This document shows positions 9,929 through 55,263 of a DNA stretch of 64,000 nucleotides, piece after piece. Source of the DNA: Cryobacterium sp. PH31-L1 (GTDB lineage: Bacteria; Actinomycetota; Actinomycetes; Actinomycetales; Microbacteriaceae); contig NZ_JASISM010000002.1 of assembly GCF_030063145.1 (NCBI RefSeq), forward strand, positions 186,001-250,000, read 5' to 3'. The notes beneath the pieces are model-generated. The model did not search any database. It worked only from the letters and a program-made list of their open reading frames with translations, and was not told the origin of the DNA. Made by a program: the position numbers and the translations under genes. Each line of letters starts with the position of its first letter. Position 1 is the stretch's first letter.

Positions 9929-9989
9929 CGCGAAAGCGGGTGAACGGTTGCTTCGGCACCGTCAAGGCAACGTTTCACCCGCTTTCGCG
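9929..9989. repeat. Long-stem palindrome (CGCGAAAGCGGGTGAA arms)
   Basis: Perfect 16-bp arms (9929-9944 and 9974-9989) continue, after a 2x2 mismatch, into GTTGC/GCAAC. It lies after the SRP terminator and is not followed by a T-run. A tandem pair of TACCCAAACGTCTG precedes it. It is a member of the dispersed long-stem palindrome class. Confidence 0.85.
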
Positions 9990-10086
9990 TGAAGATCAGG
10001 CGAAGAATGCACCGATTCTTGCCCCCCATTTGGCCGACAACGCGGGAGTCAGGACCTTTGGCACTGGGGTAGACGCCGCGGCTCAA

Positions 10087-10092
10087 TAGGAT
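10087..10092 (+). promoter_or_regulatory. Possible -10 box of the xfp-pta-ackA operon
   Basis: TAGGAT sits 45 nt before the xfp ATG. No well-spaced -35 box was found; TTGGCA at 10058-10063 is too far upstream. Confidence 0.35.
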
Positions 10093-10105
10093 GGGAAGGA
10101 GCGCG

Positions 10106-10128
10106 GCGTTGTCGCCGCGCGACAACGC
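10106..10128 (+). promoter_or_regulatory. Palindrome in the xfp leader
   Basis: A 9-bp inverted repeat (GCGTTGTCG, CCGCG loop, CGACAACGC) ends just before the GGAGGA ribosome-binding site of xfp. It could be a repressor operator or an mRNA hairpin that controls access to the ribosome-binding site. Nothing in the sequence decides between these. Confidence 0.5.
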
Positions 10129-10137
10129 GGAGGACCG

Positions 10138-12609
10138 ATGATCGACGATTCCGGCACCATGACCTGGCCTTCACGCGCGCAAAAACCCCTCAGCGCTGCG
10201 GCCCTGGCGAGCATCGACGCCTGGTGGCGGGCTGCTAATTACCTCGCGGTCGGCCAGATCTACCTGCTCGGCAACGCCCTGCTCACCGAGCCGCTCACCC
10301 GCCACCACGTCAAACCGCGCCTGCTCGGCCACTGGGGCACCACCCCCGGACTCAACTTTCTCTACGCGCACCTCAACCGCGCGATCGCGGAACGTAGCCA
10401 GAGCACGATCTTCATCACCGGCCCCGGCCACGGTGGCCCCGGCATGGTCGCCAACGCCTACCTCGACGGCACTTACACCGAGGTCTACGCCGACATCGAG
10501 CAGAACGCCCACGGCGTGCAGAAGCTGTTCCGCCAGTTCTCCTTCCCCGGTGGAATCCCCAGCCACGCCTCGCCCGAGTTGCCCGGATCCATCCATGAGG
10601 GCGGCGAACTCGGCTACGCCCTGAGCCACGCCTACGGCGCAGCGTTCGACAACCCGAACCTGCTCGTGGCCGCCGTGGTCGGCGACGGTGAGGCCGAAAC
10701 CGGCCCGCTCGCCACCAGCTGGCACTCCAACAAGTTCATCAACCCGCTGCTTGACGGCGTCGTGCTGCCCATTCTGCACCTCAACGGGTACAAGATCGCC
10801 AACCCCACCGTGCTCGCGCGCATCCCCGAAGACGAGCTGCTCGATCTCATGCGCGGCTACGGTCACACTCCATATATAGTCTCCGGCGGTTTCGACGGCG
10901 AAGACCCCATGCTCGTGCACGCGCGCATGGCCGAGACCATCGACCTGGTGCTCAACCAGATCGCCGACATCAAGGCAGCAGCCGCCGCGGCCGACAAGAA
11001 CACCGAAGACTTCGCCCGTCCGCGCTGGCCCATGATCATCCTCCGCACCCCCAAGGGCTGGACCTGCCCCGCCGTGATCGACGGCGTGCAGGTGGAGAAT
11101 ACCTGGCGCGCACATCAGGTTCCGCTGGCCAATGCCCGCGACACCCCGGCGCACACCGCCCTGCTCGAACAGTGGATGCTGTCTTACCGTCCCCGAGACC
11201 TGTTCGACGCCAGCGGTGCTCCCGTGAAACAGATCACCGACCTCGCCCCACACGGCGAGCTGCGCATGAGCGCCAACCCCATCGCCAACGGCGGACTCCT
11301 GCGCCGCGACCTGCACCTGCCGGACTTTCGCGATTTCGCCGTCGATGTTCCCCAGCCGGGCGCGACGCTGAACGAAGCGACGCGGGTGCTCGGCGGCTAT
11401 CTGGCCGAGGTCATCCGCTTGAACCCGCAGAATTTTCGCATCTTCGGCCCGGATGAAACCGCGTCGAACCGGCTGGCGCCCGCGGTTTACGCGGCCACCG
11501 ACAAGCAGTGGGACGCCGAGATGCTTCCCGGTGACACCAACCTGGCGCGCGCCGGTCGGGTCATGGAGATGCTGAGCGAGCACCAGTGCCAGGGCTGGCT
11601 CGAGGGCTACCTGCTCACCGGGCGGCACGGACTGTTCAACTGCTACGAAGCGTTCATCCACATCGTCGATTCCATGTTCAACCAGCACGCCAAATGGCTC
11701 AAGGTGACCGCCGACATTCCGTGGCGAGCGCCGATCGCGAGCCTCAACTACCTGCTGAGCTCGCACGTCTGGCGGCAGGACCACAACGGGTTCAGCCATC
11801 AGGATCCCGGTTTCATCGACCACGTCGTCAACAAGAGCGCCGACGTCGTGCGCGTCTACCTGCCGTTCGACGCGAACACCCTGCTCTCCACCTACGACCA
11901 CTGCCTGAGCAGCGTCAACTATGTGAACGTCGTCGTGGCGGGCAAGCAGCCGGCGCCGAACCTGCTCACCATGGAGCAGGCTGTCGCGCACTGCACCCGG
12001 GGCCTCGGCATCTTCGACTGGGCTGGCACCGAGGTTGCCGGCCTCGCCCCGGATGTCGTGCTCGCCGCCGCCGGCGACGTGCCGACGCTCGAGATACTCG
12101 CCGCCGCCGAGATTCTGCGCGAGAACCTGCCGGGCCTCATGGTGCGGGTCGTGAACGTCGTCGACCTCATGCGGCTGCAGTCGGAGGACGATCACCCGCA
12201 CGGTCTCAGCGACAGCGCCTTCGACGCTGTCTTCACGCCCGACAAGCCGATTATTTTCGCCTATCACGGCTACCCGTGGCTGATCCATCGGCTCACCTAC
12301 AAGCGCCACGGCCACGAGAACCTGCACGCGCGCGGCTATAAGGAGATCGGCACCACGACGACGCCGTTCGACATGGTCATGCTCAACGACCTCGACCGGT
12401 ACCACCTCGTCATGGACGTCATCGACCGCACTCCCGGGCTCGCCGCCCGGGCCGGACTGCTGCGGCAGCAGATGCAGGATGCCCGCCTCGCCGCCCGCCA
12501 GTACACCCGCGACCACGGCGAAGACGTTCCGGCCATCACGAACTGGGCTTGGTCGTCGCAAGCGGACGCCGCCGCCCGCGCCGACGAGACCGGCAGCGAC
12601 AACGTGTAA
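10138..12609 (+). CDS. xfp: Phosphoketolase (xylulose-5-P / fructose-6-P)
   Basis: This thiamine diphosphate enzyme (823 aa, normal length) cleaves xylulose-5-phosphate, and often fructose-6-phosphate, to acetyl phosphate and an aldose phosphate. Hallmarks seen are [47 protein letters not shown] and the TPP/Mg motif [18 protein letters not shown]. Near the C-terminus come the conserved [11 protein letters not shown] and [19 protein letters not shown] precedes ATG 10138. It is the first gene of an operon with pta and ackA, so the acetyl phosphate is turned into acetyl-CoA or into acetate plus ATP. Confidence 0.96.
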
Positions 12610-12647
12610 CCCCGCGCCCGACACCCTCCCAACCCGAATACGCTTGA

Positions 12648-14861
12648 ATGGACATCGTGGCTCGAAGCATCTATATCACCAGCGCCGAAGGCAACACCGG
12701 CAAATCCTCGATCGCTCTCGGCGTGGTCGACACGCTCACCCACCTGGTCGAGCGCGTCGGCGTGTTCCGCCCGGTCGCCCGCACCGCAACCGAACCCGAC
12801 TACGTCGTCGAGCTCCTGCTGCGTCACCTGCAGTCCAACGCCGGCCCCGGTGCCGCGGCCGGGCAGACCTACGAGCAGAGCATCGGTGTCAGCTACGACG
12901 ACGTCAACACCGATCCTGATGCGGCACTGGCCGTGATCGTCGCCCGCTATAAGGCGATCGAAGCCAACTGCGACACGGTCGTCGTCATCGGCAGTGACTA
13001 CACCGACGTCGGCAGCCCCACCGAACTCGCCTTCAACGCCCGCATCGCAGCGAACCTCGGCGCCCCGGTACTACTCGTGCTCGGCGGTCGCGTCGGTCCA
13101 GGCGAGGGCGAACGCCTCGGCCAGAGTGACGCCCGTTCGGCCGTGGACATCGGCCACCAGACCGACGTGGCGCTCGCGGAACTCCGCGACGAGCACGCAT
13201 CCATTCTGGCGATCATCGTCAACCGCGCCGACGAAAAGGCACTGGCCGAGATCATCGGCTCGGTGCGCGCCACGACCAACGCCCAGCCGGCGCGTTCGGG
13301 CGGAGCCTTCGGCGTGCCGATCTGGGCCATTCCCGAAGATCCCTACCTGGTCGCCCCGAGTATGCAGAGCATCATGGAAGCGACAGAGGGCACCCTGATC
13401 AAGGGTGACCCCGCCCTGCTCGCCCGCGAGGCGCTCGGCGTCGTTGTCGCGGCTATGTCCATGGTCAACGTGCTGCCGCGCCTCATCGAAGGCGCCGTCG
13501 TCGTCGTACCGGGCGACCGCGAAGACGTGCTGCTGGCCGTGCTGCTGGCCAACGCCTCCGCCACCTTCCCCTCGATCGCCGGAATCGTGCTGAACGGCGG
13601 TTTCGACCTTCCCGACGCTATTCAGCAACTGATGGAGGGCCTCGCGCCCTCGCTGCCGATCATTCGCACCTCGCTCGGCTCCTACGACACGACCATGCGC
13701 ATCACCCGCACCCGCGGACGCCTCGCCGCCGACTCGCAGCGCAAGCACGACACGGCACTGGCGTTGTTCGAGACGCACGTCGACGCGGCAGCCCTGCTCG
13801 ACCGGCTCGATGTGAGTCGGGCCGAGGTCGTCACGCCGCTCATGTTCGAATATGCGCTGCTCGAGCGAGCGCGCCAAAATCGCCAGCACATCGTGCTGCC
13901 CGAGGGGGAGGACGACCGCGTGCTGCGCGCCGCCGCGACCCTGCTGGCCCGCGATGTAGTCGAGCTGACCATTCTCGGCGAGGAATTCGAGGTGCGCTCG
14001 CGCGCCATCGGCCTCGGCCTTGACATCTCCAAGGCACACGTCGTGAGCCCCTATGACGACCTGCTGCGCCTCAAATTCGCGCAGGAATATATGCAGTTGC
14101 GGGCACATAAGGGAATCACCCTCGACCAGGCCAATGAAACCGTCACCGACGTGAGCTACTTCGGCACCATGATGGTGCAGCTTGGGCTCGCCGATGGCAT
14201 GGTCTCCGGCGCCACCCACACCACCGCGCACACCATTCGGCCAAGCTTCGAGATCATCAAGACGCAGGTCGGCGTCGGCGTAGTGTCGAGTGTGTTCCTC
14301 ATGGCGCTCGCCGACCGCGTGCTGGTCTACGGCGACTGCGCCGTCATTCCGGTACCGACCGCCGAGCAGCTCGCCGACATCGCCATCTCCGCCGCTGCCA
14401 CAGCGGTGCAGTTCGGCATCGAGCCGCGCATCGCCATGCTGTCGTATTCCACCGGGTCTTCCGGCGAGGGCGCCGACGTCGAAAAGGTGCGCACCGCCAC
14501 CGCCCTGGTGCGGGAACGCCGCCCCGACCTGCTGGTCGAGGGTCCCATCCAGTACGATGCCGCAGCGGATGCCGCAGTAGCCGCCACCAAGATGCCCGGG
14601 TCCAGCGTGGCTGGCCGCGCCACCGTGTTCATCTTCCCCGACCTCAACACCGGCAATAACACGTACAAGGCCGTGCAGCGCAGCGCCGGCGCGGTCGCGA
14701 TCGGCCCCGTGTTGCAGGGCCTGCGCAAGGCGATCAACGACCTGTCGCGCGGCGCCCTGGTGCAGGACATCGTGAACACCGTCGCGATCACCGCCATCCA
14801 GGCGGCCGGGCTGACGAGTGCCGCGGCCCTGGACGCCACCCCGGCCGGAGCCACCCGATGA
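12648..14861 (+). CDS. pta: Phosphate acetyltransferase, long form
   Basis: This enzyme interconverts acetyl phosphate and acetyl-CoA (737 aa). It is the long three-domain type: an N-terminal P-loop/dethiobiotin-synthetase-like domain (SAEGNTGKSS), a central DRTGG-like domain, and the C-terminal PTA_PTB catalytic domain (HIVLPEGEDDRVLRAAATLL ... MLSYSTGSSG ... VFIFPDLNTGNNTYKAVQRS). ATG 12648 is used; GTG 12657 would shorten it by three residues. It is 38 nt behind xfp, and its end overlaps ackA by ATGA. Confidence 0.95.
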   Translation: MDIVARSIYITSAEGNTGKSSIALGVVDTLTHLVERVGVFRPVARTATEPDYVVELLLRHLQSNAGPGAAAGQTYEQSIGVSYDDVNTDPDAALAVIVARYKAIEANCDTVVVIGSDYTDVGSPTELAFNARIAANLGAPVLLVLGGRVGPGEGERLGQSDARSAVDIGHQTDVALAELRDEHASILAIIVNRADEKALAEIIGSVRATTNAQPARSGGAFGVPIWAIPEDPYLVAPSMQSIMEATEGTLIKGDPALLAREALGVVVAAMSMVNVLPRLIEGAVVVVPGDREDVLLAVLLANASATFPSIAGIVLNGGFDLPDAIQQLMEGLAPSLPIIRTSLGSYDTTMRITRTRGRLAADSQRKHDTALALFETHVDAAALLDRLDVSRAEVVTPLMFEYALLERARQNRQHIVLPEGEDDRVLRAAATLLARDVVELTILGEEFEVRSRAIGLGLDISKAHVVSPYDDLLRLKFAQEYMQLRAHKGITLDQANETVTDVSYFGTMMVQLGLADGMVSGATHTTAHTIRPSFEIIKTQVGVGVVSSVFLMALADRVLVYGDCAVIPVPTAEQLADIAISAAATAVQFGIEPRIAMLSYSTGSSGEGADVEKVRTATALVRERRPDLLVEGPIQYDAAADAAVAATKMPGSSVAGRATVFIFPDLNTGNNTYKAVQRSAGAVAIGPVLQGLRKAINDLSRGALVQDIVNTVAITAIQAAGLTSAAALDATPAGATR

Positions 14862-16108: not shown

Positions 16109-16133
16109 CGAGATCTTCGCATTCGCCGTGCAG

Positions 16134-16204
16134 AACTGCGGAGAATGTCGCGTTTGGGCCAGAATCTGGCTCGGGCGGGGTGTTTCTGCCATTTCTCCGC
16201 AGTT
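16134..16204. repeat. Long-stem palindrome (AACTGCGGAGAA arms), left copy
   Basis: Perfect 12-bp arms (16134-16145 and 16193-16204) enclose a 47-nt interior that holds a smaller GCCAG/CTGGC hairpin. It lies between the convergent ackA and DUF559 genes. The arm word returns at 17339-17409 on the other side of the DUF559 gene. There is no T-run, so it is not a standard terminator. Confidence 0.85.
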
Positions 16205-16217
16205 ACGGATGGCGCTT

Positions 16218-17063
16218 TCAGGATGCGGCGTCCTCGGCGTCACGCACCATGCGATGCACGGTCTCAAGGGTTGTGGTCCAGGTATCGAAAATGTGTGGTC
16301 GGGCCAGACGGAGTGTGCGGATGCCATGCCGCTCAACTTCGCGGTCTTTGGTGCGGTCGGGCAGGAATCGATCCGCGCCGTGCCATTCTTCACCGTCAGT
16401 CTCAATTCCGACGCAGCCATTGACAAGCATGTCGACGTGGCCGGCTCCCGGCACATAAAACTGGGTCTCGACCCGAAAGCCGTCGCGGATGAAACCCACC
16501 CGGCTGAATGTTTCGAAACCGGATTGGGCACCGCGGTCTATGAGACTCAGAATTTTTCTCAGGCGGTCTGGTGCCGCGTCGATGAGTTCGCCGAGGTCGT
16601 CGTCGGAGATGAATTTCTTGAAGAGCGCGGACTCCAGGCACGCTAACGCGTCGACATCCTCCAGGCACGTCAAAGCCTGCAGCACAGCATCAAACGGCGA
16701 TACCTCGAACACCGGCCCCCACTCGCGGACGGCACGACTCCAGTGGAGTGCTGCGCCAGGTTCCAATCGTCGTTGATGGTGGTGCGGACGCAAGCGCAAG
16801 TGAAGGCCTGGCCGCGCGATTCCGCTCCAGATTCCAAGCTGGGACAGACGCGTCAGACAATCGACTCGGCCGCCAACCTGCAATGCGGTGACTGTCGGTT
16901 GATCGAGGTGCGTGCAGGAAAATACGCCCTTGGCGCTGTGTCGAATCAGCCCCGAGTCGACGGCAGATTTCACTGATCGCCGGGTGGCCCCGGTTGTAGC
17001 TAATTGCAGGGAGGTGGCGACGTGCCCTAGATGGCACAGAACGGTGGCAAGGTCGTAGCCCAT
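16218..17063 (-). CDS. DUF559 (Vsr-like) endonuclease-domain protein
   Basis: This 281-aa protein belongs to a type that is widespread in actinobacteria. Its N-terminal half resembles the AbiEi-like winged-helix part (ATTGATRRSVKSAVDSGLIRH), and the C-terminal ~110 residues form a DUF559/Vsr-type nuclease fold with VETQFYVPGAGHVDMLV, IETDGEEWHG and a KDREVERHG segment. ATG 17063 is chosen because it begins the conserved part. It is a single gene bracketed by two copies of an ACTGCGGAG-armed palindrome. Its biological role is unknown; the nuclease fold is inferred from the acidic/His pattern. Confidence 0.8.
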   Translation of the reverse strand: MGYDLATVLCHLGHVATSLQLATTGATRRSVKSAVDSGLIRHSAKGVFSCTHLDQPTVTALQVGGRVDCLTRLSQLGIWSGIARPGLHLRLRPHHHQRRLEPGAALHWSRAVREWGPVFEVSPFDAVLQALTCLEDVDALACLESALFKKFISDDDLGELIDAAPDRLRKILSLIDRGAQSGFETFSRVGFIRDGFRVETQFYVPGAGHVDMLVNGCVGIETDGEEWHGADRFLPDRTKDREVERHGIRTLRLARPHIFDTWTTTLETVHRMVRDAEDAAS

Positions 17064-17436
17064 GCCTGCATTGTGCGACCACGGAGGCTGCACTTGGCAG
17101 AGTGCTTGCCAGATGTGGAACACCCCCGCAAGCGGCGCTTGGGGAGGAGAGGTCGCCCTGTCTTCGGTGGTGGTCAGATGTGCGTAAAAAGATGCCTGAT
17201 CGTGCCTATCGTTGCCTGCTGCGACCGCGTCCGTGGAGAATTTCCGCAGTTGTGCACTGTGTGTGCGGGTCGAACGACGAGGCAAAGATCACGGTGGTTC
17301 AGCGGCGACAGCCGCGCCCTATCCGGGTGCAGTTCAATACTGCGGAGTTTTTGCCTCGTGGAGGTCGATTCTGTCGGATTCGAGCTGAAATCAGCCAGAT
17401 CTCCGCAGTTGTAAACGGGACCTTCATCCCGGCGGG
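17064..17436. other. Intergenic region rich in ACTGCGGAG inverted repeats
   Basis: This 373-nt region has no convincing gene. It holds TCCGCAGT at 17243-17250, and ACTGCGGAG/CTCCGCAGT at 17339-17347 and 17401-17409. The left word can also pair with the middle one. The DUF559 promoter should lie here but was not identified. Confidence 0.6.
17339..17409. repeat. Long-stem palindrome (ACTGCGGAG arms), right copy
   Basis: This 71-nt element has 9-bp perfect arms that share the ACTGCGGAG word with the left copy at 16134-16204, which is also 71 nt. The interior sequences differ. The two copies bracket the DUF559 gene. Confidence 0.75.
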
Positions 17437-17952
17437 TCAGGCGTTCGCGATCGTGCAGGTTCCGGCGCCCGCGAGCAGCGGGAACGTGGCGTGCGCGCTC
17501 GAGATGAGCGAGCGCCATCCGCTCGCGTGGGCGGCCGCAACGCCGACGTCGCCGGAACCCCCGAGCAGCCCGCCCAGAAGCGAGCCCTCAAACGTCGTCG
17601 TGTACGTTCCGGTCATCGGACCGGTCGTGCTCACACCGCTGCCGAGGGCAACCGGCGTGAGCCCTCCGACGCCGCTATTCGAGTTGTAATAGCGGGCGTT
17701 GCCCGCGGTATACCCGGCTGTGGGGTAATGCCAAGTCAGCACGACTCGTGGCGCGACGAGACTGACCGATACGAGCACGCTCGACGCCGTGCAGGTATCG
17801 ATCACCGGCGCCGGAACCACGAGGGCAGTCAAAGCGGACGACGCGTGCTCAGCATCCGTGAATGTCGCGTCGGTCCAGTGCGCGCCGGCCGGCACGAGCA
17901 CGCTGGCCAGCGCCGCCGCAATGACCAGAACGCCGAGCTGCCGCGGGATCAT
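17437..17952 (-). CDS. Exported protein of the SipW/TasA-like cluster
   Basis: This 171-aa protein has an N-terminal signal (LGVLVIAAALASVLVPAGAHW) and the WTDATFTDAEHAS segment, which resembles the processed start of SipW-dependent (CalY/TasA-like) proteins. The body is Gly/Thr/Val-rich and beta-prone. Its ATG overlaps the sipW stop (ATGA), making it the last gene of the four-gene operon. It is probably a fibre or surface component processed by the adjacent peptidase; this is inferred from context. Confidence 0.7.
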   Translation of the reverse strand: MIPRQLGVLVIAAALASVLVPAGAHWTDATFTDAEHASSALTALVVPAPVIDTCTASSVLVSVSLVAPRVVLTWHYPTAGYTAGNARYYNSNSGVGGLTPVALGSGVSTTGPMTGTYTTTFEGSLLGGLLGGSGDVGVAAAHASGWRSLISSAHATFPLLAGAGTCTIANA

Positions 17953-18698
17953 GGCCGGCCGTCCGGATGCTGCGGCGAATCAGCAGCCGACCCGTCGCGG
18001 TCGTCATCGCGGTCGGCGTCATCCCGTTCGTCGCGCGGCCAGAACGCCCAGGTCACGAGCACGGCCGCCCCGACCGCGAGCGCGGCGAGCACCCACGGGT
18101 TCGAGAACCAGACCACGACAACGGCGAGCCCCGGCACCGACGCGAGCACGATGCGCACGAGGGTGACGGTGTACGGCGCCGGGTCGGCCGCCGTGTTCGC
18201 GTCGCCCTTCAGCGTGATCACCCGGGCTTCGCTGGGCTGAGTAAGCGGGGCTCCCCCGGAGGTGGCGCTGATATCCGCACCGGCTGGGGCTTCGGGCAGG
18301 GTTGTGACCGAGGTGACCCGGTGCGTGATCGGCAGCGCGCCCGCGCGATCAACCGTCACGACGTCCCCGACGCGAATCTCACTCGCCGCAATCTCGTGCA
18401 CGAGCGCGACGGATCCGGCCGGAATACCCGGCCCCATCGACCCGGTGCGGAACATGATCAGGGTCAGGTTGAACCCGACCGCCATCACCACGAGCACGAG
18501 GCAGACGACTCCGCCGACCGCGGCGAGGTTGAGCCCAGTGCCGGCGATGAACCTTCCGGCTCGACGCGCCGACCCGTGAGTTTCAACCGCCGGCCCGTGA
18601 GTTTCGGCACCGATGTGGCCCGATTCGGGGCCGAAACTCACGGCTCGGCGAACGGATGCCCCACCAGAATCCCCGGCAGGGCCCGGCCCTCGACCCAT
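17949..18698 (-). CDS. sipW: SipW-type signal peptidase I (Ser/His type)
   Basis: This membrane signal peptidase (249 aa) probably processes the neighbouring exported proteins. A transmembrane segment at about 55-84 is followed by the nucleophile motif FRTGSM (Ser87). The position of the usual lysine is occupied by ITHRV (His126), as in SipW/ER-type S26B peptidases. KGDAN gives the third conserved site. A second transmembrane segment and a charged Asp/Arg tail end the protein. The start overlaps the upstream stop (TGATG). Residues 19-35 are encoded by a 49-nt palindrome embedded in the gene, an unusual N-terminal extension. Confidence 0.87.
   Translation of the reverse strand: MGRGPGPAGDSGGASVRRAVSFGPESGHIGAETHGPAVETHGSARRAGRFIAGTGLNLAAVGGVVCLVLVVMAVGFNLTLIMFRTGSMGPGIPAGSVALVHEIAASEIRVGDVVTVDRAGALPITHRVTSVTTLPEAPAGADISATSGGAPLTQPSEARVITLKGDANTAADPAPYTVTLVRIVLASVPGLAVVVVWFSNPWVLAALAVGAAVLVTWAFWPRDERDDADRDDDRDGSAADSPQHPDGRP
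18595..18643. repeat. Long-stem palindrome inside the sipW coding sequence
   Basis: Perfect 14-bp arms (CCGTGAGTTTCGGC at 18595-18608 and its complement at 18630-18643) enclose an inner GGCCC/GGGCC pairing. An additional CCCGTGAGTTTC word lies just upstream, near 18574. The whole element is translated as part of the N-terminal cytoplasmic tail of SipW. Confidence 0.85.
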
Positions 18699-19354
18699 CA
18701 CGACGCGACCGCCCCGAACGTATAGTGCAGCGTCACGGTCGTGCCCTGCGCGGCATTCACCGCCGAGCTCGGCAGCGTCACCGCGAAACAAAAATTCACA
18801 ACGGACGCCCCGGCCGCCGCCACCGCCTGCGTGGCGGCCGCGCTGACGGTCGGCACCGATCCCGGCGCCACGATCGAGGTTCCGCCGGCGAAGGTCGCTA
18901 CCGAGCAGATCGTTCCGGCAATGGCGGTGACCCCGTAGGTGAGGTAGGCGCCGAGGCCGGAGCCGTTCGCGGCATCCGCTGTGAGCTGCAGTGTGCCGGC
19001 CACGCTGGTGGGAGTGGTTTTCACCGAGTACAACGCGTAGACGACCGCGCCGGGAACCATCGCCGACGGCGAGACCGCGAATGCGAGGGTGGCGCCCGGC
19101 GCCGTCGGATGATCGGTGAAGGTAGCCCCGTCGGTGGCTCCGACGATCGAGAAGGTGCCGGCGGTGAGGGTGGCGCTGGCGTGTTCCTCGTCGGTCCAGG
19201 CGGCGACCGTCGCGGCCGCGCCGATGCCGAGAACGAGACCACCGGCCAGAATGGCGCGCACCCGCACGAACCGGCGGTGCCGATCCGCTCGGCTGGGCGC
19301 GCGGTTCGTCGAGAGCTCAGAACCGAATCGACGGCGTAATCCTGCGGGGTCCAT
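18698..19354 (-). CDS. SipW-dependent exported protein 2 (TasA/CalY-like)
   Basis: This 218-aa protein has the alternate-type signal typical of SipW substrates: a basic start, then GGLVLGIGAAATVAAWTDEEHASA, after which cleavage is expected, followed by TLTAGTFSIVGA. The rest is Thr/Ala/Val-rich and beta-prone, with a Cys (AGTICSVA) and a second near the C-terminus. It is 6 nt behind the first substrate gene and overlaps sipW by TGATG. It is likely an extracellular fibre or matrix subunit. Confidence 0.78.
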   Translation of the reverse strand: MDPAGLRRRFGSELSTNRAPSRADRHRRFVRVRAILAGGLVLGIGAAATVAAWTDEEHASATLTAGTFSIVGATDGATFTDHPTAPGATLAFAVSPSAMVPGAVVYALYSVKTTPTSVAGTLQLTADAANGSGLGAYLTYGVTAIAGTICSVATFAGGTSIVAPGSVPTVSAAATQAVAAAGASVVNFCFAVTLPSSAVNAAQGTTVTLHYTFGAVAS

Positions 19355-26504: not shown

Positions 26505-26576
26505 TCCGGGCCTGAGCCCGGAAACCGGGACCACGATATATCATGGTCCCGGTTTCATAACATGGGCCCGGCCCGA
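26505..26576. repeat. GGGCCC palindromic element, copy D (covarying stem)
   Basis: It lies in the asd-GGDEF spacer. The central stem is a perfect 12-bp AAACCGGGACCA/TGGTCCCGGTTT around CGATATATCA (26522-26555). Compared with copies A and B, a C-G pair has become A-T on both arms, so pairing is preserved. The outer parts TCCGGGCCTGAGCCCGGA and GGGCCCGGCCCG match the family. Confidence 0.88.
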
Positions 26577-33534: not shown

Positions 33535-35013
33535 GTGAATTCTCAGGGAACCGTTGACGTAGTCCTCATTGGTGGCGGCATCATGAGTGCCACCCTCGGC
33601 ACGCTCCTGAAGGAGCTGCAGCCCGACTGGCGCATCGAGGTGTACGAGCGCCTCGGCGAGCTGGCCCAGGAGAGCTCGAACCCGTGGAACAACGCCGGCA
33701 CGGGCCACGCCGGGCTCTGCGAACTCAACTACATGCCGCAGGCTGCGGACGGTTCGGTCACCGCCGACAAAGCCGTCGTCATCAATGAGCAGTTTCAGAT
33801 CAGCCGCCAGCTGTGGGCGCACCTGGTTTCGATCGGCGCCCTGCCTGAGCCGGGTAAGTTCATCAACTCCACTCCGCACATGACCTTCGTGCACGGCAAA
33901 GCCAACGTGGAATACCTGCGCAAGCGTCACGCCGTGCTCGCGCCCGAGCCGTTGTTCGCCGGCATGGAATTCAGTGATGACGCCGCCACCATCGGCACCT
34001 GGACCCCGCTGCTCACCCGCAAGCGCCCCGCCGGCCAGAAAATCGCCGCCACCCGCATCACGAGCGGCACCGACGTCGACTTCGGTGCCCTCACCCGGCT
34101 CCTATTCGAGAATCTCGAACAGCAGGGAGCCACGATGCACATGAATGAGCAGGTCGTCGGCCTCAAGCACAAAGCGGATGGCACCTGGAACCTTAAATTG
34201 CTGCGCCAGGTCGGGCAGACCCGCAGTACCGTCAACGCCCGCTTCGTGTTCGTCGGAGCCGGTGGCGGCGCACTCGCGCTGCTGCAGCAGAGCGGGATTC
34301 CCGAGATCAAGGGCTTCGGTGGCTTTCCGATCAGCGGCCAGTTTCTGCGCACCACCAACCCGAAGCTCGTCGCCCAGCACCAGGCCAAGGTCTACGGCAA
34401 GGCGGCCAAGGGTGCCCCGCCGATGTCGGTGCCGCACCTGGACACCCGCGTGGTCGATGGTGAAATGTCGCTGTTGTTCGGCCCGTACGCCGGGTTCAGT
34501 CCCAAGTTCTTGAAGACGAGCACCTGGTTCGACCTGCCGTTCTCCATTCGCACGCACAACCTCGGCCCGATGCTCGCCGTCGCGAAGAACAACTTCGACC
34601 TGATGAAATACCTGATCGGCGAGGTGTTCGCGTCGCGGTCCGCCAAGATCAAGGCCCTGCGCGAGTTCATTCCCGCTGCGGATTCGAAGGACTGGGAGCT
34701 GATCACAGCCGGCCAGCGCGTTCAGGTCATGAAGAAGGATCCCAAGCTTGGGGGAGTGCTGCAGTTCGGCACCGAGGTCATCACCTCGAGCGATGGCTCG
34801 ATCGCCGGCCTGCTCGGCGCCTCGCCGGGAGCCTCGACGGCCGCGCCGATTATGGTGGATCTGCTGGCCCGCTGCTTCCCCGACCGTATCGAGGGCTGGA
34901 AGCCGCGCATCCGTCAGATGATCCCGAGCTACGGCACCCGCCTGTCTGACGACCCTGCTGCTGCTGCCGCGTCCCTGGCCGCCACCGCCGAAGTATTGAA
35001 CCTCACGAACTAG
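33535..35013 (+). CDS. mqo: Malate:quinone oxidoreductase
   Basis: This membrane-associated FAD enzyme oxidises malate to oxaloacetate and passes electrons to the quinone pool (492 aa, normal length). The N-terminal dinucleotide motif is VVLIGGGIMSATLGTLLKEL. Family blocks SSNPWNNAGTGHAGLCELNY, FINSTPHMTFVHG and LLGASPGASTAAPIM are all present. GTG 33535 is supported by the -10 box 7 nt upstream. A very strong 61-nt palindrome follows 13 nt after the stop. Confidence 0.96.
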   Translation: MNSQGTVDVVLIGGGIMSATLGTLLKELQPDWRIEVYERLGELAQESSNPWNNAGTGHAGLCELNYMPQAADGSVTADKAVVINEQFQISRQLWAHLVSIGALPEPGKFINSTPHMTFVHGKANVEYLRKRHAVLAPEPLFAGMEFSDDAATIGTWTPLLTRKRPAGQKIAATRITSGTDVDFGALTRLLFENLEQQGATMHMNEQVVGLKHKADGTWNLKLLRQVGQTRSTVNARFVFVGAGGGALALLQQSGIPEIKGFGGFPISGQFLRTTNPKLVAQHQAKVYGKAAKGAPPMSVPHLDTRVVDGEMSLLFGPYAGFSPKFLKTSTWFDLPFSIRTHNLGPMLAVAKNNFDLMKYLIGEVFASRSAKIKALREFIPAADSKDWELITAGQRVQVMKKDPKLGGVLQFGTEVITSSDGSIAGLLGASPGASTAAPIMVDLLARCFPDRIEGWKPRIRQMIPSYGTRLSDDPAAAAASLAATAEVLNLTN

Positions 35014-35026
35014 TACCAGCTCGCCT

Positions 35027-35087
35027 CGCGAAAGCGCAAAATGTGCCCGATTGGAGTGTCCAATCGGGCACTTTTTGCGCTCTCGCG
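35027..35087. repeat. Long-stem palindrome (GTGCCCGATTGG arms), left copy
   Basis: Two 29-nt arms pair at 27 of 29 positions around a GTG loop. The arms read CGCGAAAGCGCAAAA, T, then GTGCCCGATTGGA. It lies after mqo. The same arm sequence recurs at 35507-35566, beyond the next gene. There is no T-run after the stem. Confidence 0.92.
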
Positions 35088-35198
35088 GAACGAAAATTGG
35101 AGCCGGGTGGGAATCGCGTAGGAGGGTGCTGTCAACCCCTTGAATGCGAGAGTCAGCAGATGTCTACTTAAGGCCCAAAGCGGCCCAGGAGGCGGCAC

Positions 35199-35495
35199 GT
35201 GAACCCGAACAATGGCGTTTCGGATGCCCAGAATCTGCGCGTATCGCAGCTCGGCATTCTCCAGCTCACCCCGACCGAATGGTTGGTGCGAGATTCGCAA
35301 ATGCTCGATGGCGACCCAGCCGCCCTGCTCGGAGTGATCCAGCAGAGCGGAGACGCTTATGAGGTGACCAAGCTCGGCGTGCTGACCACGAGGTGGTTCT
35401 ATTCCTCGTTCGATCGGGCCCAGGCCAGCTTTCTGGTGCGCGGCACCGCCGCCCCGCGGCAGACGCGCCAGCGAGTCTCCCAGATCACCGACTAG
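35199..35495 (+). CDS. Small conserved-looking protein of unknown function
   Basis: This 98-aa protein starts at GTG 35199 with an excellent AGGAGG ribosome-binding site at 35190-35195. It is a mixed alpha/beta protein with TPTEWLVRDSQM and GVLTTRWFYSSFDRAQASFLVRG and no recognised domain. The gene is bracketed by two copies of the same GTGCCCGATTG-armed palindrome and lies between mqo and a convergent small gene. Confidence 0.7.
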   Translation: MNPNNGVSDAQNLRVSQLGILQLTPTEWLVRDSQMLDGDPAALLGVIQQSGDAYEVTKLGVLTTRWFYSSFDRAQASFLVRGTAAPRQTRQRVSQITD

Positions 35496-35506
35496 CTTCG
35501 CCGGGT

Positions 35507-35566
35507 CGCGAGAGCGCAAAAAGTGCCCGATTGAGCATCTCAACCGGGCACTTGCGCGCCCTCGCG
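35507..35566. repeat. Long-stem palindrome (GTGCCCGATTGA arms), right copy
   Basis: The left arm CGCGAGAGCGCAAAA then AGTGCCCGATTGA pairs with TCAACCGGGCACTT...CTCGCG, with a few mismatches and an A bulge. It is a diverged copy of the element at 35027-35087, in the same orientation and 480 bp away. It sits between convergent genes. Confidence 0.88.
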
Positions 35567-35583
35567 GGGTGACGCGAGGCGGT

Positions 35584-35865
35584 CTAGACCTCGTAATTAT
35601 CGCCATCTGTTGAGGGGTCGGTCTTGCGCTCCTCTTTCTTGACGGATGCTTCGGTGCGATCCAGCAGATCGCTTACCTTGGTCTGCGCCACGGAGGCGGC
35701 GTCGCGCGCGATCGTCTCGGCCTGCGAGATGACCTTCTGCGTGGCCGGGTCGCCCCACATTTCGTGGGCTTTCGCGCTGAGCCGGTCATAGGCCTGGCGG
35801 CCGGCCTTGGATCCGAGAACGAAGCCGGTCGCGGTACCGGCGAGGAACAACAGCTTGCCTTTCAT
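35584..35865 (-). CDS. YtxH-like small membrane-anchored protein
   Basis: This 93-aa protein has an N-terminal hydrophobic segment (LLFLAGTATGFVLGSKAGRQAYDRL). The AG-x-x-G-x-x-xG-SKAGR pattern is common to YtxH-domain proteins. A helical, charged remainder ends in an acidic tail. AAGGAG lies just upstream of the ATG. Family members are often envelope or stress-associated; the role is not defined. Confidence 0.72.
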   Translation of the reverse strand: MKGKLLFLAGTATGFVLGSKAGRQAYDRLSAKAHEMWGDPATQKVISQAETIARDAASVAQTKVSDLLDRTEASVKKEERKTDPSTDGDNYEV

Positions 35866-37787: not shown

Positions 37788-37842
37788 TGCTCGCGGCACC
37801 CCTACGTAGGAGTTCCGCGAACTCTACTGAGTGCCGCGAGCA
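37788..37842. repeat. Long-stem palindrome (TGCTCGCGGCAC arms)
   Basis: Perfect 12-bp arms (37788-37799 and 37831-37842) enclose two smaller perfect palindromes, CCTACGTAGG (37801-37810) and AGTTCCGCGAACT (37811-37823). A three-way cruciform is possible. It lies between divergent genes, so a terminator role is unlikely. Confidence 0.85.
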
Positions 37843-46518: not shown

Positions 46519-46621
46519 GGTACCCGAGCCGCCCGGAGCCGCCCAGCGGGCGCAGAAAAGCCCGGCCAGAGATCCGGCCGGGCTGGGAAACTTCGTGGGC
46601 CAGAGCGGCCCGTGCGCTGCG

Positions 46622-46930: not shown

Positions 46931-47143
46931 TCTGGTGCCTCGCGCTGGTTCTTCGGCGAACGCGAACGGGCAGGCCGAGTCGCATACAACCACGGTTTCG
47001 TTCCCGGTTTGGGAGCGATAATTGTTATGCGTTTTTGATCTTACCGATGCGGGCCGCTAAGTGCCTCGCCTAGTTAGCCAAATCCCAGCCCCAATGCTGG
47101 GGACACTGAGAGCGGTCCGACACCGGTACGGGGTGCGTCGGTC

Positions 47144-47890: not shown

Positions 47891-48056
47891 GAATACACAC
47901 TCCCCATGACCCCAAACTACCGGCACCGGCTGTCGGTCAGCGCCCGGGTCAAAGTTCGGTACCCTCAAAGCAGGGGAGCCGCACGCTCGTGCAGTGAAGT
48001 ACGCGCCGTATCGGGAGCTACCAAACCCGTTCACGACTCGAGGGGGATCAGGCCGC

Positions 48057-49502: not shown

Positions 49503-49532
49503 CCGACCCCCGCGCTCTGCTTGAATAGGGCC

Positions 49533-51329: not shown

Positions 51330-51420
51330 TGTTCGCCGCGGGGCAACCCAGCGGTCGCAGAACCACAGCGACCGGGGCCTTCACCGACATCCGGTACCAA
51401 CGCACCATGGGGGATTCACC

Positions 51421-51945
51421 TTGATCAAGAAGCTCATTGCCACTCTCGCGCTCGCTGGAGTTGCATTGCTGGCCGGCCCGGTTGCCGCGCACGCCGCCGG
51501 TTATGTGGCCGCAGACCTGATCAGTGTTTCCGGCAGCCAAACGGCTGGCAGCACGGTCGCAATCGCCTTCGACGATGGCGCTTTTGCCGCCAGCGAAACC
51601 GTTTCGGTAGCCGTTTCCGGTGAAGGGTCGGTCATTCTCGCCGCTGTGCGCGCGGCAACGGTCGATCTCCGGAAGACGTCAACCAGCGTCGGTGCCCTCG
51701 ACCTCAAGGTCACCCTGCCAGCGGATGCGACCGGCTCGTACACGCTCACCGCGACCGGCCTCAGCTCGCAGAGTGTCGGTACCGCCACGATCACCGTGGT
51801 CGCCGCAGACGAAACCGGTCTGGCCTCCGCCGGTTTCGACGCCCCGATGGTGCTCATCTACTCTGCCGCCGGCGCTTTGCTGCTGGGCCTCGGCCTGGTC
51901 ATCGCGCTGCGCCTCACCATGCGCCGCCGCGGCGCCACCGTCTAG
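51421..51945 (+). CDS. Surface protein paralogue with altered sorting motif (LASAG)
   Basis: This 174-aa protein starts at TTG 51421 after GGGGGATTCACC. It has a signal peptide ending AAHAAGY, a beta-rich body and a C-terminal hydrophobic span (LIYSAAGALLLGLGLVIAL) with an Arg-rich tail. It aligns end to end with the protein encoded at 45912, but the sorting motif reads LASAGF instead of LASTGF, replacing the Thr that sortases normally attack. It may therefore stay membrane-anchored. Confidence 0.8.
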   Translation: MIKKLIATLALAGVALLAGPVAAHAAGYVAADLISVSGSQTAGSTVAIAFDDGAFAASETVSVAVSGEGSVILAAVRAATVDLRKTSTSVGALDLKVTLPADATGSYTLTATGLSSQSVGTATITVVAADETGLASAGFDAPMVLIYSAAGALLLGLGLVIALRLTMRRRGATV

Positions 51946-51970
51946 TTTCACGGTTTCACCCCCTGATCGT

Positions 51971-51996
51971 GGGTCGCTCGTGTAACCGAGCGGCCC
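51971..51996 (+). terminator. Hairpin after the second surface protein gene
   Basis: GGTCGCTCG (51972-51980) pairs with CGAGCGGCC (51987-51995) with one G-T. There is only a short T stretch after it. Confidence 0.5.
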
Positions 51997-52053
51997 CTTC
52001 GCCTGTGTCAAGCTACAGGTTGGCAACTGTGTATCGCAACGAAAGGTAGCAGC

Positions 52054-53490
52054 GTGGAACTCCGCGACTACATCCGCATCCTGCAGAAGAGTTGGATGCT
52101 CATCGTGGCGCTGACCCTGGTGGCTGTGGCCGCGGCATCCGTTTTCTCGATTCTGCAGACACCGACCTACAGCGCCACCTCGAAAGTTTTCGTCTCGACC
52201 GAATCGAGCGGTACGACGAGCGATCTCGTGCAGGGCGCGAGCTTCACTGTGGCCAGGGTCAAGACCTACTCAAGCCTCGCCGTCACTCCACTCGTGCTGC
52301 TACCGGTCATCGAGACGCTCACGCTTGACCTTTCGGCGGCCGAATTGGCTGAGAACATCGCCGTCTCGGCGCCGCTCGACACGTCGATCATCGATATCAC
52401 CGTCACCGATCCCGACCCGCGCCGGGCCGCGGACATTGCCAACGAGGTATCGCAGAGCCTCACCCTTCAGGTGCAGGAGATCGAGCAGCCCGAAGCCGTC
52501 ACGGAAGCTCCGGCCGTGAAACTCACCCGGGTGCAGGTGGCCAGTGTGCCGTTGGTGTCGGTGGGCCCGAACGTTCCCCTCAATATCGCGCTCGGGGCTC
52601 TCGTAGGACTGGCCCTCGGCGTGGGCCTCGCCGTGCTGCGCGAAACGCTCGACACCCGCATTCGCAGCCAGCGCGACGTTGAACAGGTCACCGAGCTGCC
52701 CATCATCGGCGGCATCGTGTTCGACCCCAAAGCCGCCGAGCGCCCGCTCATCGTGCACGCCGACCCGCGCAGCCCGCGGGCGGAATCCTTTCGCACGCTG
52801 CGCACCAACCTGCAATACCTCGACGTGGAGCGGGTCGACCGCTCGTTCGTGGTCACCTCGTCGATCGGCAGCGAGGGCAAGAGCACCACGAGCGCCAACC
52901 TGGCCATTTCACTGGCCGATTCCGGTGCCCGCGTGCTGCTCGTCGACGCTGACCTGCGCAAGCCGCGCGTCGCCGACTACATGAACATCGAGGGCGGCGT
53001 CGGCCTCACCGACGTGCTCGTCGGCCGGGCCGAGATCGAGGACGTGCTTCAGCCCTGGGGCCGAGGTCAGCTGTTCGTGCTGCCAGCCGGCCACATTCCG
53101 CCCAACCCGAGCGAGCTGCTCGGGTCGTCGCGCATGGCGCAACTCATCGAGGACTTCAACCACACCTTCGACGTGGTCATCTTCGACTGCCCGCCGCTGC
53201 TTCCCGTAACGGATGCCGCCATCCTCGCCAAGAGCGTCGGCGGCGCCATTCTCATCGTCGCGGCCGGCCGCACCCAGAAGAACCAGCTCACCGGCGCCAT
53301 CGCGGCGCTCGCGAATGTCGGCGCCCCGATCAGCGGTGTCGTCATGACAATGCTGCCGACCAGGGGACCCGATGCCTACGGTTACGGCCACTACGGCCAG
53401 TACGGCTACGGACACACCTACGGCGAGGTCGGCCCGGCACCCGAGATCGTTGCTCCCAACTACTCCCGCCGATCGAGAGCCCAAGCATGA
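52054..53490 (+). CDS. Wzz/BY-kinase fusion, copy 2
   Basis: This 478-aa paralogue of the protein encoded at 48057 starts at GTG 52054 with GAAAGGTAG upstream. The Wzz domain and its helices, Walker A SSIGSEGKSTTSANL, Walker A' LLVDADLRKPR and Walker B VVIFDCPPLLPVTD are all present. The C-terminal tyrosine cluster is YGYGHYGQYGYGHTYG. Its stop overlaps the phosphatase start (ATGA), the classic kinase/phosphatase pair of exopolysaccharide control. Confidence 0.93.
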   Translation: MELRDYIRILQKSWMLIVALTLVAVAAASVFSILQTPTYSATSKVFVSTESSGTTSDLVQGASFTVARVKTYSSLAVTPLVLLPVIETLTLDLSAAELAENIAVSAPLDTSIIDITVTDPDPRRAADIANEVSQSLTLQVQEIEQPEAVTEAPAVKLTRVQVASVPLVSVGPNVPLNIALGALVGLALGVGLAVLRETLDTRIRSQRDVEQVTELPIIGGIVFDPKAAERPLIVHADPRSPRAESFRTLRTNLQYLDVERVDRSFVVTSSIGSEGKSTTSANLAISLADSGARVLLVDADLRKPRVADYMNIEGGVGLTDVLVGRAEIEDVLQPWGRGQLFVLPAGHIPPNPSELLGSSRMAQLIEDFNHTFDVVIFDCPPLLPVTDAAILAKSVGGAILIVAAGRTQKNQLTGAIAALANVGAPISGVVMTMLPTRGPDAYGYGHYGQYGYGHTYGEVGPAPEIVAPNYSRRSRAQA

Positions 53491-54098
53491 CCGCCCCCCG
53501 CGATCTCCCCGACGAGACCCCGCGCGACCTCCCGGCCGCAGCCCCCCGAATCCTCATCGTCTGCACCGGCAACATCTGCCGGTCGCCGCTGGCCGAGCAG
53601 CTGTTGCGGCAGAATCTGACCGCGGCGGGCATCGATGCCGTCGTCAGGAGTGCCGGAACGCGTGCCATGACCGGCAGCGCAATGACGCCGGAAGCGGCGG
53701 CGTTGTCGCAACAATACGGGGCGTCGAACACCCACCATGTCGCTCGGCAGCTCACCGAGAAGCTCATCGCCGACGCCGACCTGGTGCTCACGGCCACGCG
53801 CGACCACCGCCGAGACGTCGTGACAATGCTGCCCAAGGCCACCCGTTACACCTTCACGCTCAACCAGTTCGCGCGTCTGGTGTCCGCCGCCGAACCAACC
53901 CGACCGCCGCTCGACTTCGCGGCCTATGTCGCGGACATCGCCTCGACCCGCGGACTCCACCCCTCGCCCACACCGCCCACCCTCGACGACGTCGATGACC
54001 CCTACCGCCAGTCCGCGGCCGTCTACGCCCGTGCCGCCGCGGCCATCAACGCGTCCGTCACGACGATCACTGCCGCCCTGGTCGCGGCCGGAGCCTGA
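53487..54098 (+). CDS. Low-molecular-weight protein tyrosine phosphatase (Wzb-like)
   Basis: This 203-aa enzyme should dephosphorylate the tyrosine cluster of the adjacent BY-kinase. The P-loop CTGNICRS (Cys26-x5-Arg32) and the general-acid region DVDDPYRQS are present. It has about 20 extra N-terminal residues and a longer middle part than the usual ~150-aa enzyme. It overlaps BY-kinase 2 by ATGA and the next gene by TGATG, so three genes are translationally linked. Confidence 0.93.
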   Translation: MTAPRDLPDETPRDLPAAAPRILIVCTGNICRSPLAEQLLRQNLTAAGIDAVVRSAGTRAMTGSAMTPEAAALSQQYGASNTHHVARQLTEKLIADADLVLTATRDHRRDVVTMLPKATRYTFTLNQFARLVSAAEPTRPPLDFAAYVADIASTRGLHPSPTPPTLDDVDDPYRQSAAVYARAAAAINASVTTITAALVAAGA

Positions 54099-55087
54099 TG
54101 CCTCACTCACGTCGTCGTCGCCTCATCGCGTACTCCGCTATCGGATTGTTCGTGCTGATCGACGCCGTGCTCGTCACGAGCGCACTCACCTCCACCTCGG
54201 TTGACGCGGCCACAGACGCGTCATCGACGCCGGCGGCGACGGCATCCGTTTTCCCCACTCCGAGCGCCAGCCCGTCGCCCACCCTTGCCGCGACGCCGAC
54301 TCCCACTCCCACCTTCGCACCCGCGGTCAGCCCGATGCCGGCCTCTCGCCTGCTCTCGGCCGTTTCGGCCACCGCTGCCTGGCGCGCCACCACCGGAGCC
54401 TGCCCGGCCACGGCGGCCTCGCCCGAGCTCAGCACCGATTCCGGCGCCACCTGGGTGCCCAGCAACGCGACCGCACCGACCGGGGTCACCGCCCTGCAGA
54501 ACATCTTTGCCCAGAGTGAGTCCGTGGCCGAATTCGTGGGTCTCGCTGACGAAGACTGCGCCCCGCAGTTCGTCAAGACCTTCGTCGGTGGTGAGAACTA
54601 CTCCAGCTACCCCGATGAGCTCGACGTGGCCTGGTACATCGACCCCGCCGACCGCGCCACCGTGCACGGCCCCGATGGCCTCGCCACTGCCCCGTGCGAC
54701 GCCGTCGTCACCGTCGCCCCAGGCCTGGGAGACGCCGACTCGGCCGCCGTGCTCTGCGCCGACGGCCGGTTGTTCTCCACAACGGATGCCGCCGCCACTT
54801 GGTCGCAGCCGGTAACCGTCGCCGGAATGGTCACCCTCACCGCCACCACAACGGGCTACCTGGCCGTCGCTACCACCAGCTCGACCACGCCCACCGACTG
54901 CATCGGTGTGGACCTCGTCGCCCTCACGGCCGACCTCGTGCCCACGGTAACCGGCTGCTACCCGACCGAGCAAACTCCGGCTGCCTTGGCGGGCAACGTC
55001 GCGGTCGCCGCCGCCGATGACACGCTCTGGCTCTGGATCGGCGACGCCACCCTCCGTTCGACCGACTCCGGCCGCACCTGGCTCTAG
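54098..55087 (+). CDS. Exported BNR/Asp-box repeat protein
   Basis: This 329-aa protein has a basic N-terminus and a membrane-spanning signal (LIAYSAIGLFVLIDAVLVTSAL). A Pro/Thr/Ser-rich stalk (about 45-85) and a beta-propeller-like domain with Asp-box motifs follow (STDSGATW, STTDAAATW, STDSGRTW). It is probably anchored outside the cell. It is coupled to the phosphatase gene by TGATG and ends the exopolysaccharide operon. Confidence 0.78.
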   Translation: MPHSRRRRLIAYSAIGLFVLIDAVLVTSALTSTSVDAATDASSTPAATASVFPTPSASPSPTLAATPTPTPTFAPAVSPMPASRLLSAVSATAAWRATTGACPATAASPELSTDSGATWVPSNATAPTGVTALQNIFAQSESVAEFVGLADEDCAPQFVKTFVGGENYSSYPDELDVAWYIDPADRATVHGPDGLATAPCDAVVTVAPGLGDADSAAVLCADGRLFSTTDAAATWSQPVTVAGMVTLTATTTGYLAVATTSSTTPTDCIGVDLVALTADLVPTVTGCYPTEQTPAALAGNVAVAAADDTLWLWIGDATLRSTDSGRTWL

Positions 55088-55194
55088 CGGCCCGGCCGCC
55101 CCGCCCTGCGCCGCCCCGCGCCGCCCCGCCTTGCGCGGGCCGGCCGCGCTGCGCCCACATCCCGGTCCCGCCGGTCGCCCTGCGCCGCCCCTTG

Positions 55195-55263
55195 TGCCGG
55201 TAAATTTACGACACGCCGAGCTTTTCGTCCGAAATCCACGGTGAGTCGCGAAATTTACCGGCA
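55195..55263. repeat. Long-stem palindrome (GCCGGTAAATTT arms)
   Basis: Perfect 13-bp arms including the outer T-A pair (55195-55207 and 55251-55263) continue internally with CGAC/GTCG. It lies downstream of the BNR gene in a GC-rich spacer, without a T-run. It is a member of the dispersed long-stem class. Confidence 0.85.

Follow-up and report, generated by a model that had tools for sequence, protein, structure and literature searches.

Palindromic repeat families associated with AbiEi-Vsr nuclease-like genes in Cryobacterium

Most of the long palindromes in the 64,000 nt of Cryobacterium sp. PH31-L1 DNA analyzed here (hereafter, the window) probably belong to nuclease-associated palindromic repeat families, in which a gene for an AbiEi-Vsr protein has palindromes with its own arm sequence on each side, and the other palindromes are solo or orphan copies; we assign this interpretation a probability of roughly 0.57. 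Seven of the eight palindromes listed in an earlier note on this DNA are members of repeat families that flank nuclease-like genes here or in relatives. That note recognized neither the nuclease link nor the lineage specificity of the arms, nor the dispersal of the copies. The features concerned are listed below (no strand is assigned to the palindromes).

2194..2278: palindrome of the AATTCAGGAAA type, outside the earlier list of eight; similar arms adjoin nuclease genes at loci L106, L118 and L137
9929..9989: solo palindrome CGCGAAAGCGGGTGAA..., past the small SRP RNA gene
16134..16204: palindrome AACTGCGGAGAA...TTCTCCGCAGTT, in the gap between the nuclease gene, whose stop it directly follows, and ackA
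16218..17063, minus strand: putative nuclease gene, 281 aa from the likely start at 17063; the reading frame is open to 17285
17339..17409: palindrome ACTGCGGAG...CTCCGCAGT (perfect over 9 bp) on the upstream side of the nuclease gene; arm as at 16134
18567..18650: class B palindrome CGCCGRCCCGTGAGTTTC...GAAACTCACGGCTCGGCG with a doubled left arm (site 18595 of the earlier list)
35027..35087: solo copy of class A (CGCGAAAGCGCAAAATGTGCCCGATTGGA), located 13 nt past the mqo stop codon; its stem contains a T5 run
35507..35566: imperfect solo copy of class A, sharing its arm with 35027
37788..37842: palindrome TGCTCGCGGCAC...GTGCCGCGAGCA; second copy at L021:19316-19387
55195..55263: solo palindrome TGCCGGTAAATTT...AAATTTACCGGCA; in other Cryobacterium genomes, this arm type adjoins a related nuclease located after ackA

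Inverted repeats are indeed present at all eight sites, and both arm-sharing pairs that had been proposed, 16134/17339 and 35027/35507, are confirmed. When the arms were required to be perfect over 12 bp or more, with loops of 3-60 nt, 11 inverted repeats were found in the window, compared to a mean of 0.7 and a maximum of 3 in 40 dinucleotide shuffles of the same sequence, so that the count exceeds the shuffled background, a check that had been named beforehand. Lowering the required arm length to 9 bp leaves a small excess (51 inverted repeats vs 32 in the shuffles, maximum 43). Perfect arms of 12 bp are reached at 6 of the 8 sites; the 17339 inverted repeat, with its 9 bp, was identified by eye and is absent from both computed lists, and the one at 35507 is imperfect. 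The arms are not locus-specific in the strict sense because arm families recur in the genome, and the outer CGCGAAAGCG is common to the 9929 and 35027 palindromes. The placement of one palindrome inside a gene appears doubtful: the palindrome at 18567-18650 falls within the 5' portion of the minus-strand reading frame 17949-18791, before a hydrophobic segment, and may be located ahead of the true start of this frame. At gathering thresholds, Rfam matches in the window were confined to SRP RNA and tRNA.

The two ACTGCGGAG palindromes (16134 and 17339) flank an intact copy of the putative nuclease gene. For these two sites, the earlier suggestion of ends of small mobile units comes close, given that they are both flanks of one nuclease-gene unit. 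The 16134 arm type is present at the corresponding site in genomes G209 and G078, and the 17339 arm is also found upstream of the orthologous nuclease gene at loci L040/L329 and L330. One further candidate of this arm type was seen in 424 kb, and a genome-wide BLAST search yielded no further copies.

The encoded protein is predicted to consist of a DNA-binding, AbiEi-like N-terminal half with the two-domain AbiEi fold and a C-terminal half similar to Vsr and homing endonucleases (MTES_1575/DUF559), in which the PD-(D/E)xK fold is accompanied by conserved acidic catalytic residues. The fold matches are AbiEi (6Y8Q), the homing endonuclease I-Bth0305I and Vsr; Rv2827c matches the N-terminal half more weakly than 6Y8Q. 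Among five scanned proteins, the MTES_1575 profile matches all five, each below the cut-off, the DUF559 profile is above the cut-off in two, and Pfam detects no transposase domain in five of the nuclease proteins. The protein is a putative nuclease that may bind, cut and mobilize DNA, and the protein-binding cruciforms of the earlier note become plausible given the predicted DNA-binding half. The resemblance to AbiEi antitoxins of type IV AbiE systems, a family that binds inverted repeats (PMC7319586, accessible text), is limited to the N-terminal half; unlike these antitoxins, the protein bears a Vsr-like domain, and neither of the two window neighbors tested, acetate kinase and a reading frame without a Pfam match, is an AbiEii toxin (DUF1814) by Pfam. 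It differs from Vsr and I-Bth0305I-type homing endonucleases in its AbiEi-like head and the palindromes around its gene, and from the name-giving MTES_1575 protein, which the accessible text of PMC3710099 describes as large and multidomain, with helicase and wHTH parts.

With such domains, the gene could be imagined as a selfish restriction-like or defense gene whose nuclease attacks foreign-type palindromes, its own arm type being the mark of self. Defense and conflict systems contain both AbiEi parts (PADLOC AbiEi matches) and Vsr parts (a Vsr REase in PMC3710099), and the arms diversify fast. However, several palindrome families coexist in one genome, and no modification or immunity gene is recognizable by Pfam among the tested window neighbors; we regard this explanation as very unlikely.

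The association between nuclease genes and palindromes extends across the protein family. Sequences of at least 14 nt are common to the upstream and downstream flanks at 28 of 67 family-wide nuclease loci, compared to 0.9% of 1316 permuted flank pairs and 1 of 114 control genes. In the genus-only locus sets, the permutation backgrounds reach 10% and 25% because related loci have arms in common, and therefore the test rests on the family-wide set. A palindrome was detected upstream at 32, downstream at 23 and on both sides at 12 of 69 nuclease loci, whereas about 13% upstream and 8% downstream would be expected from the rate of 0.31 per kb seen elsewhere; 26 of the 69 have no flanking palindrome at the threshold used. 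Within one nuclease clade (39 palindromes), pairing involves 84% of the arm cells, compared to 60% after shuffling, and compensated cells number 237 vs 85. The arms often match within a locus and differ between protein lineages, although the partner is the best match at only 11 of 17 two-palindrome loci, and no convincing paired palindromes were found at five loci (Cellulomonas, Serinibacter, Nostocoides and two MAGs). In the accessible literature outside subscription journals, we found no report of palindromes around AbiEi-Vsr nucleases.

Covariation of the arms with the protein could also arise if the palindromes served the nuclease gene as operators and terminators, under self-repression of the AbiEi type, with the copies elsewhere acting as regulatory targets. 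This possibility, to which we give a fairly low probability, draws on the AbiEi-like fold and on the binding of promoter inverted repeats by AbiEi and Rv2827c (accessible part of PMC7319586). It is countered by the palindromes downstream, which overlap the stop end of the gene in six loci (L040, L053, L058, L101, L123 and L136), and by the solo copies, which are many, differ between sister species, follow unrelated genes wherever they were read and remain in genomes where the nuclease was not found.

Nuclease genes flanked by the arm types of 9929, 18567, 35027/35507 and 55195 are present in other Cryobacterium genomes, and class C arms, too, bracket nucleases in the genus. Both class A and class B combine enzyme-flanking and dispersed palindromes in one genome, class A arms bracketing the nuclease gene in G209, G216 and G223 and class B arms in G248, G225 and G245. 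These nucleases, found with P0002, are diverged branches relative to the window protein, and no close relatives of the latter were detected beside class A and B copies at 1e-4. In G212 (L071) and C. glaciale (L343), the nuclease has the 55195 arm type on either side, and the outer 14-16 nt of the 9929 arm bracket nuclease genes in G246, G237, G193 and G210, the inner part being different. For the 37788 palindrome, there was no nuclease partner in the loci fetched. Elsewhere in the source genome, fragments of a class B nuclease adjoin a class B palindrome.

In two families, copies are more common where a related nuclease is present, with exceptions. Of 57 genomes, the three richest in class A copies are those in which the nuclease itself carries class A arms, as assessed among 30 P0003 loci. 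Next come the source genome (20 matches), which has no P0003 match at 1e-30, and G231 (18 matches), where the nuclease carries other arms although it looks cognate by protein identity. Class B-rich genomes without a nuclease at least 69% identical are G204 (14 matches), G207 (12) and G226 (11). Because many class A and B copies lack a matching nuclease, the copies outlive or do not need it; copy number is weakly rank-correlated with the similarity of the nuclease (partial coefficients 0.24 and 0.28). Other arm types were counted genome-wide in the source genome only. At least one neighbor of one locus is retained in 29 of 30 P0003 loci, and hence this gene behaves like a mostly vertically inherited one, which weighs against the favored interpretation.

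The solo copies found at orthologous sites vary from species to species. In 17 relatives, the mqo site (35027) holds a complete class C palindrome in 8, class A in 2, the class C left arm only in G248 and neither family, by the scan, in 6. The earlier note had held that ordinary terminators of unrelated sequence at the same positions would speak against special palindromes; 8 of the 17 relatives have a palindrome of another family here, and some of the six show, by eye, only short GC hairpins, which may act as ordinary terminators. At the 35507 place, a class A pair was found in none of the 17 relatives searched, including the sister G209. No target-site duplication is definable, and the intergenic DNA has diverged.

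These hairpins bear on a further alternative, in which the palindromes act as ordinary intrinsic terminators in both directions, recombination has spread them and the nuclease link is incidental. The earlier argument against termination, that no palindrome is followed by a T-run, fails for 35027: the inner hairpin 35043-35071, which scores as a terminator with TTTTT, is followed by TTTTTGCGC within the outer stem. In a scan that covered 34800-35800, a GC-rich hairpin with a T-run was found there and on the minus strand of the 35507 copy (35537-35524, where CTTTTT follows a short stem). Thus, the 35027 palindrome also looks like a terminator, and class A copies lie close past stop codons in the loci read. 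We nevertheless consider this alternative unlikely given the sequence matches on both sides of nuclease genes, far above control genes, the long loops of the 16134, 55195 and class C types, and the different palindrome families that hold the mqo site.

Returning to nuclease-associated repeat families, we infer that the nuclease spreads the palindromes. The AbiEi-like winged-helix half would recognize the arm sequence, as a duplex or an extruded hairpin, the Vsr-like half would nick or cut at the recognized arm, and host repair or recombination would copy the palindrome, sometimes with the whole unit, to new places. Just past stop codons, where copies often lie in the loci read, a hairpin would do little harm and could serve as a terminator. 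The arms and the reading head would co-evolve, and thus each nuclease lineage would possess its own arms; solo and orphan palindromes would be those with the cognate nuclease in relatives.

REP palindromes are abundant intergenic repeats of bacteria. Together with RAYT (TnpA-REP), REPs and REPINs form "REPtrons", which, in the accessible text of PMC3733652, comprise a palindrome-flanked enzyme gene, dispersed solo palindromes that are lineage-specific, and orphans. All these traits appear to be common to both systems; the differences are that RAYT is a Y1 HUH transposase and the protein here an AbiEi-Vsr fusion, and that the palindromes here span about 40-110 nt. RAYT, the enzyme family tied to REP palindromes in the literature accessible to us, was rejected as the mobilizer: the Y1 transposase (PF01797) was found in none of the 57 genomes of the genus, and the profile matches 5 of 14 control genomes. 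By analogy, the palindromes may form a REP/RAYT-like system with an unrelated nuclease in the role of RAYT, which suggests small selfish DNA of a new kind. Somewhat more tentatively, at slightly less than even odds, they could represent a new class of mobile DNA, with transposase-free hairpin copying by an AbiEi-Vsr nuclease whose head and arms co-diverge fast, yielding about eight arm types at one syntenic locus. If so, the REP lifestyle would have arisen at least twice, here with a second enzyme that is unrelated to RAYT but likewise has matched palindromes, a function could be proposed for DUF559/MTES_1575 proteins bearing AbiEi heads, and many natural matched protein-DNA pairs would be at hand for studying the evolution of DNA recognition. 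Distant relatives of the nuclease also occur in plasmids and phages (5, 1 and 3 records).

The earlier note had placed inverted repeats at eight sites of the window (bases 186001-250000 of a 518-kb contig in a 3.66-Mb genome). Named relatives of the nuclease described below assign this genome to the genus Cryobacterium, in the family Microbacteriaceae. The repeats are present at 8/8 sites, and the window contains 11 perfect inverted repeats with arms of at least 12 bp, compared with a mean of 0.7 in 40 dinucleotide shuffles. Two of the eight sites lie on either side of a putative nuclease gene:

16134..16204, palindrome
16218..17063 (-), putative nuclease with predicted AbiEi-like N-terminal and Vsr-like C-terminal halves
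17339..17409, palindrome

Matching palindromes flank the nuclease, and this architecture is general across the nuclease family. Relatives were found in 132 of the 199 genomes searched in the bacterial family, and we surveyed the flanks of 69 loci from the top of the list of relatives (29 plus the next 40). A palindrome, defined by arms that pair perfectly over 10 bp or more and a span of 45-115, occurs upstream of the gene at 32 of these loci, downstream at 23, on both sides at 12 and on either side at 43; the background elsewhere in the same loci is 0.31 per kb. Clear pairs with matching arms are those of L111, L123, L127, L114, L113, L131, L102, L056, L053 and L040. With no palindrome finder involved, 28 of 67 loci had an identical run of 14 nt or more in both flanks (2 of the 69 were removed for flanks that were too short). 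Such sharing was seen in 0.9% of 1316 permuted pairs, at 1 of 270 random positions in the own genome and around 1 of 114 ordinary ORFs (240-420 aa). A distant relative of the third branch of the family (P0003), at 30% identity, is encoded by a 6.7-kb phage record (MT837503.1:4956-5930).

The arms follow the nuclease, being both lineage-specific and compensated. Of the best 30 P0003 loci from matches in 51 genomes, 29 retain at least one of the two neighbour genes, left or right, of a single locus, and therefore most of the 30 are orthologues. About eight arm types, counted by eye, occur at these 30 loci; the outer CGCGARAG is retained in most, and the inner part varies. For the pairing analysis, a row had to score at least 20 of 29, which retained 45 of 60 rows, 39 of them in the core set L239-L262. 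In these 39 palindromes, 84% of arm cells pair versus 60% (maximum 63%) after shuffling, and 237 cells are compensated versus 85 (maximum 105). At the 17 two-palindrome loci, arm similarity is 0.87 within a locus versus 0.61 between loci, and the best-matching palindrome is the same-locus partner at 11.

The arm families recur in the own genome. They were counted, with mismatches allowed, in 424 kb (the window plus 18 stretches), which is not a fair sample because several stretches were picked for having arm matches in earlier genome searches.

Copies in the 424-kb own-genome sample
Class A (type of 35027 and 35507), AAAAAGTGCCCGATT: 8
Class B (type of 18567..18650), CCGTGAGTTT: 6
Class C, ATAACTCCTGCAA: 3
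AATTCAGGAAA type: 3
16134 type: 2
37788 type: 2
9929 type: 1
55195 type: 1

A AATTCAGGAAA-type palindrome absent from the earlier list lies at 2194-2278, and similar arms adjoin nuclease genes in other genomes.

Most of these types have a nuclease partner in relatives; for 37788, one was sought in the fetched loci and none was found.

Nuclease partners of solo palindromes
Class B: brackets a nuclease of the second branch (P0002) in G248, G225, G245
Class B variant arm: brackets a P0002-branch nuclease in G212, G078
Class A: brackets a P0003-branch nuclease in G216, G209, G223
9929 arm, outer part: brackets a P0003-branch nuclease in G246, G237, G193, G210
55195 arm: adjoins nucleases related to the window's own, after ackA, in G212 (both sides), G248, G225; also present on both sides of the nuclease in L343
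Class C: both sides of nucleases in C. cryoconiti, C. gelidum, C. cheniae, C. adonitolivorans, PH31-O1 (37/46 loci examined)

The own genome holds a second palindrome-bracketed nuclease gene (C11:244772-246018, equal to L377:573-1819) with matching arms TCACCGCGCC, as well as class B nuclease fragments that adjoin a class B palindrome.

Palindrome copies differ between species at syntenic places. The P0003 locus was searched in 15 genomes and its status called in 13: a nuclease with another arm type in 3 (G231, G204, G245), a single palindrome plus a remnant of the nuclease in 1, a class C palindrome alone in 6, including the own genome, and an empty site in 3. G209, G216 and G223 carry a class A palindrome-nuclease-palindrome unit there; as judged by BLAST ends, the stretch missing from G212 relative to G209 begins ~8 nt ahead of the first palindrome and stops ~10 nt beyond the second. 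After mqo (the 35027 site), 2 of 17 relatives have class A and 8 have a complete class C palindrome, accompanied in two of the 8 by a AATTCAGGAAA palindrome; 1 has just the class C left arm and, by scan, 6 have neither class. A class A pair at the 35507 place was found in 0 of the 17. At ackA, matched in 56 genomes, a nuclease is present at 13 of the 30 loci read.

Copy number was compared with the resident nuclease. Class A matches, counted on both strands, number 32 in G216, 27 in G209, 21 in G223, 20 in the own genome and 18 in G231, and at most 9 in every other genome. The three richest have class A arms at their nuclease, yet G231 has other arms there, and the own genome, despite its 20 class A matches, gives no P0003 hit at 1e-30. 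The seven genomes whose nuclease reaches 69% identity have 4-18 class B matches; many copies also occur where such a nuclease is missing, with 11 matches each in the own genome and G226, 12 in G207 and 14 in G204. With genomes labelled by nuclease identity, so that G231 counted as cognate, the Mann-Whitney p value for class A was 7e-5, or 0.0014 when the comparison was restricted to 18 near genomes; for class B it was 3e-6, or 0.003 under the restriction to near genomes. These values are optimistic because the genomes are related; rank correlations controlled for ackA similarity were weak (0.24, 0.28).

Under the mechanism that we propose, the AbiEi-like half would read the arm, the Vsr-like half would cut, and repair would then copy the palindrome. 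Strand joining is not known for Vsr-like nucleases, and repair copying therefore seems likelier than true transposition. The segment 35043-35071 scores as a terminator, and this mechanism would allow some copies to act as terminators as well.

A similar enzyme-palindrome association is that of REP palindromes and RAYT transposases (PMC3733652); a search of 57 genomes of the genus detected no Y1 transposase. The promoters of AbiEi proteins contain inverted repeats to which these proteins bind (PMC7319586), and the MTES_1575 domain has been named a Vsr-type REase (PMC3710099). Titles and abstract beginnings in the open-access literature yielded no description of palindromes around these nucleases. 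As a way of life, the association is REPtron-like; by the defining test of REP/RAYT, the only similar system seen, the nuclease protein falls outside it.

Other repeats were also observed. A GGGCCCGG-rich palindrome class at 3525-3596, with a GATAGAACATGGGCCC centre, and at 26506-26571 has further copies in the own genome (L023, L026). Ahead of a tRNA-Ser gene, 9439-9560 contains CGCTGGTCGAGG- and GAGCGATCGAGA-type repeats, possibly another interspersed repeat. In the sampled part of the genome, the word AGCGGATGCC/GGCATCCGCT is shared by several short hairpins (L020, L024, L036), and L020:14196-14248 and L035:10536-10589 belong to a further palindrome family, whose arms end in CCGGGG and whose loop contains CGAAAAGC or its complement.
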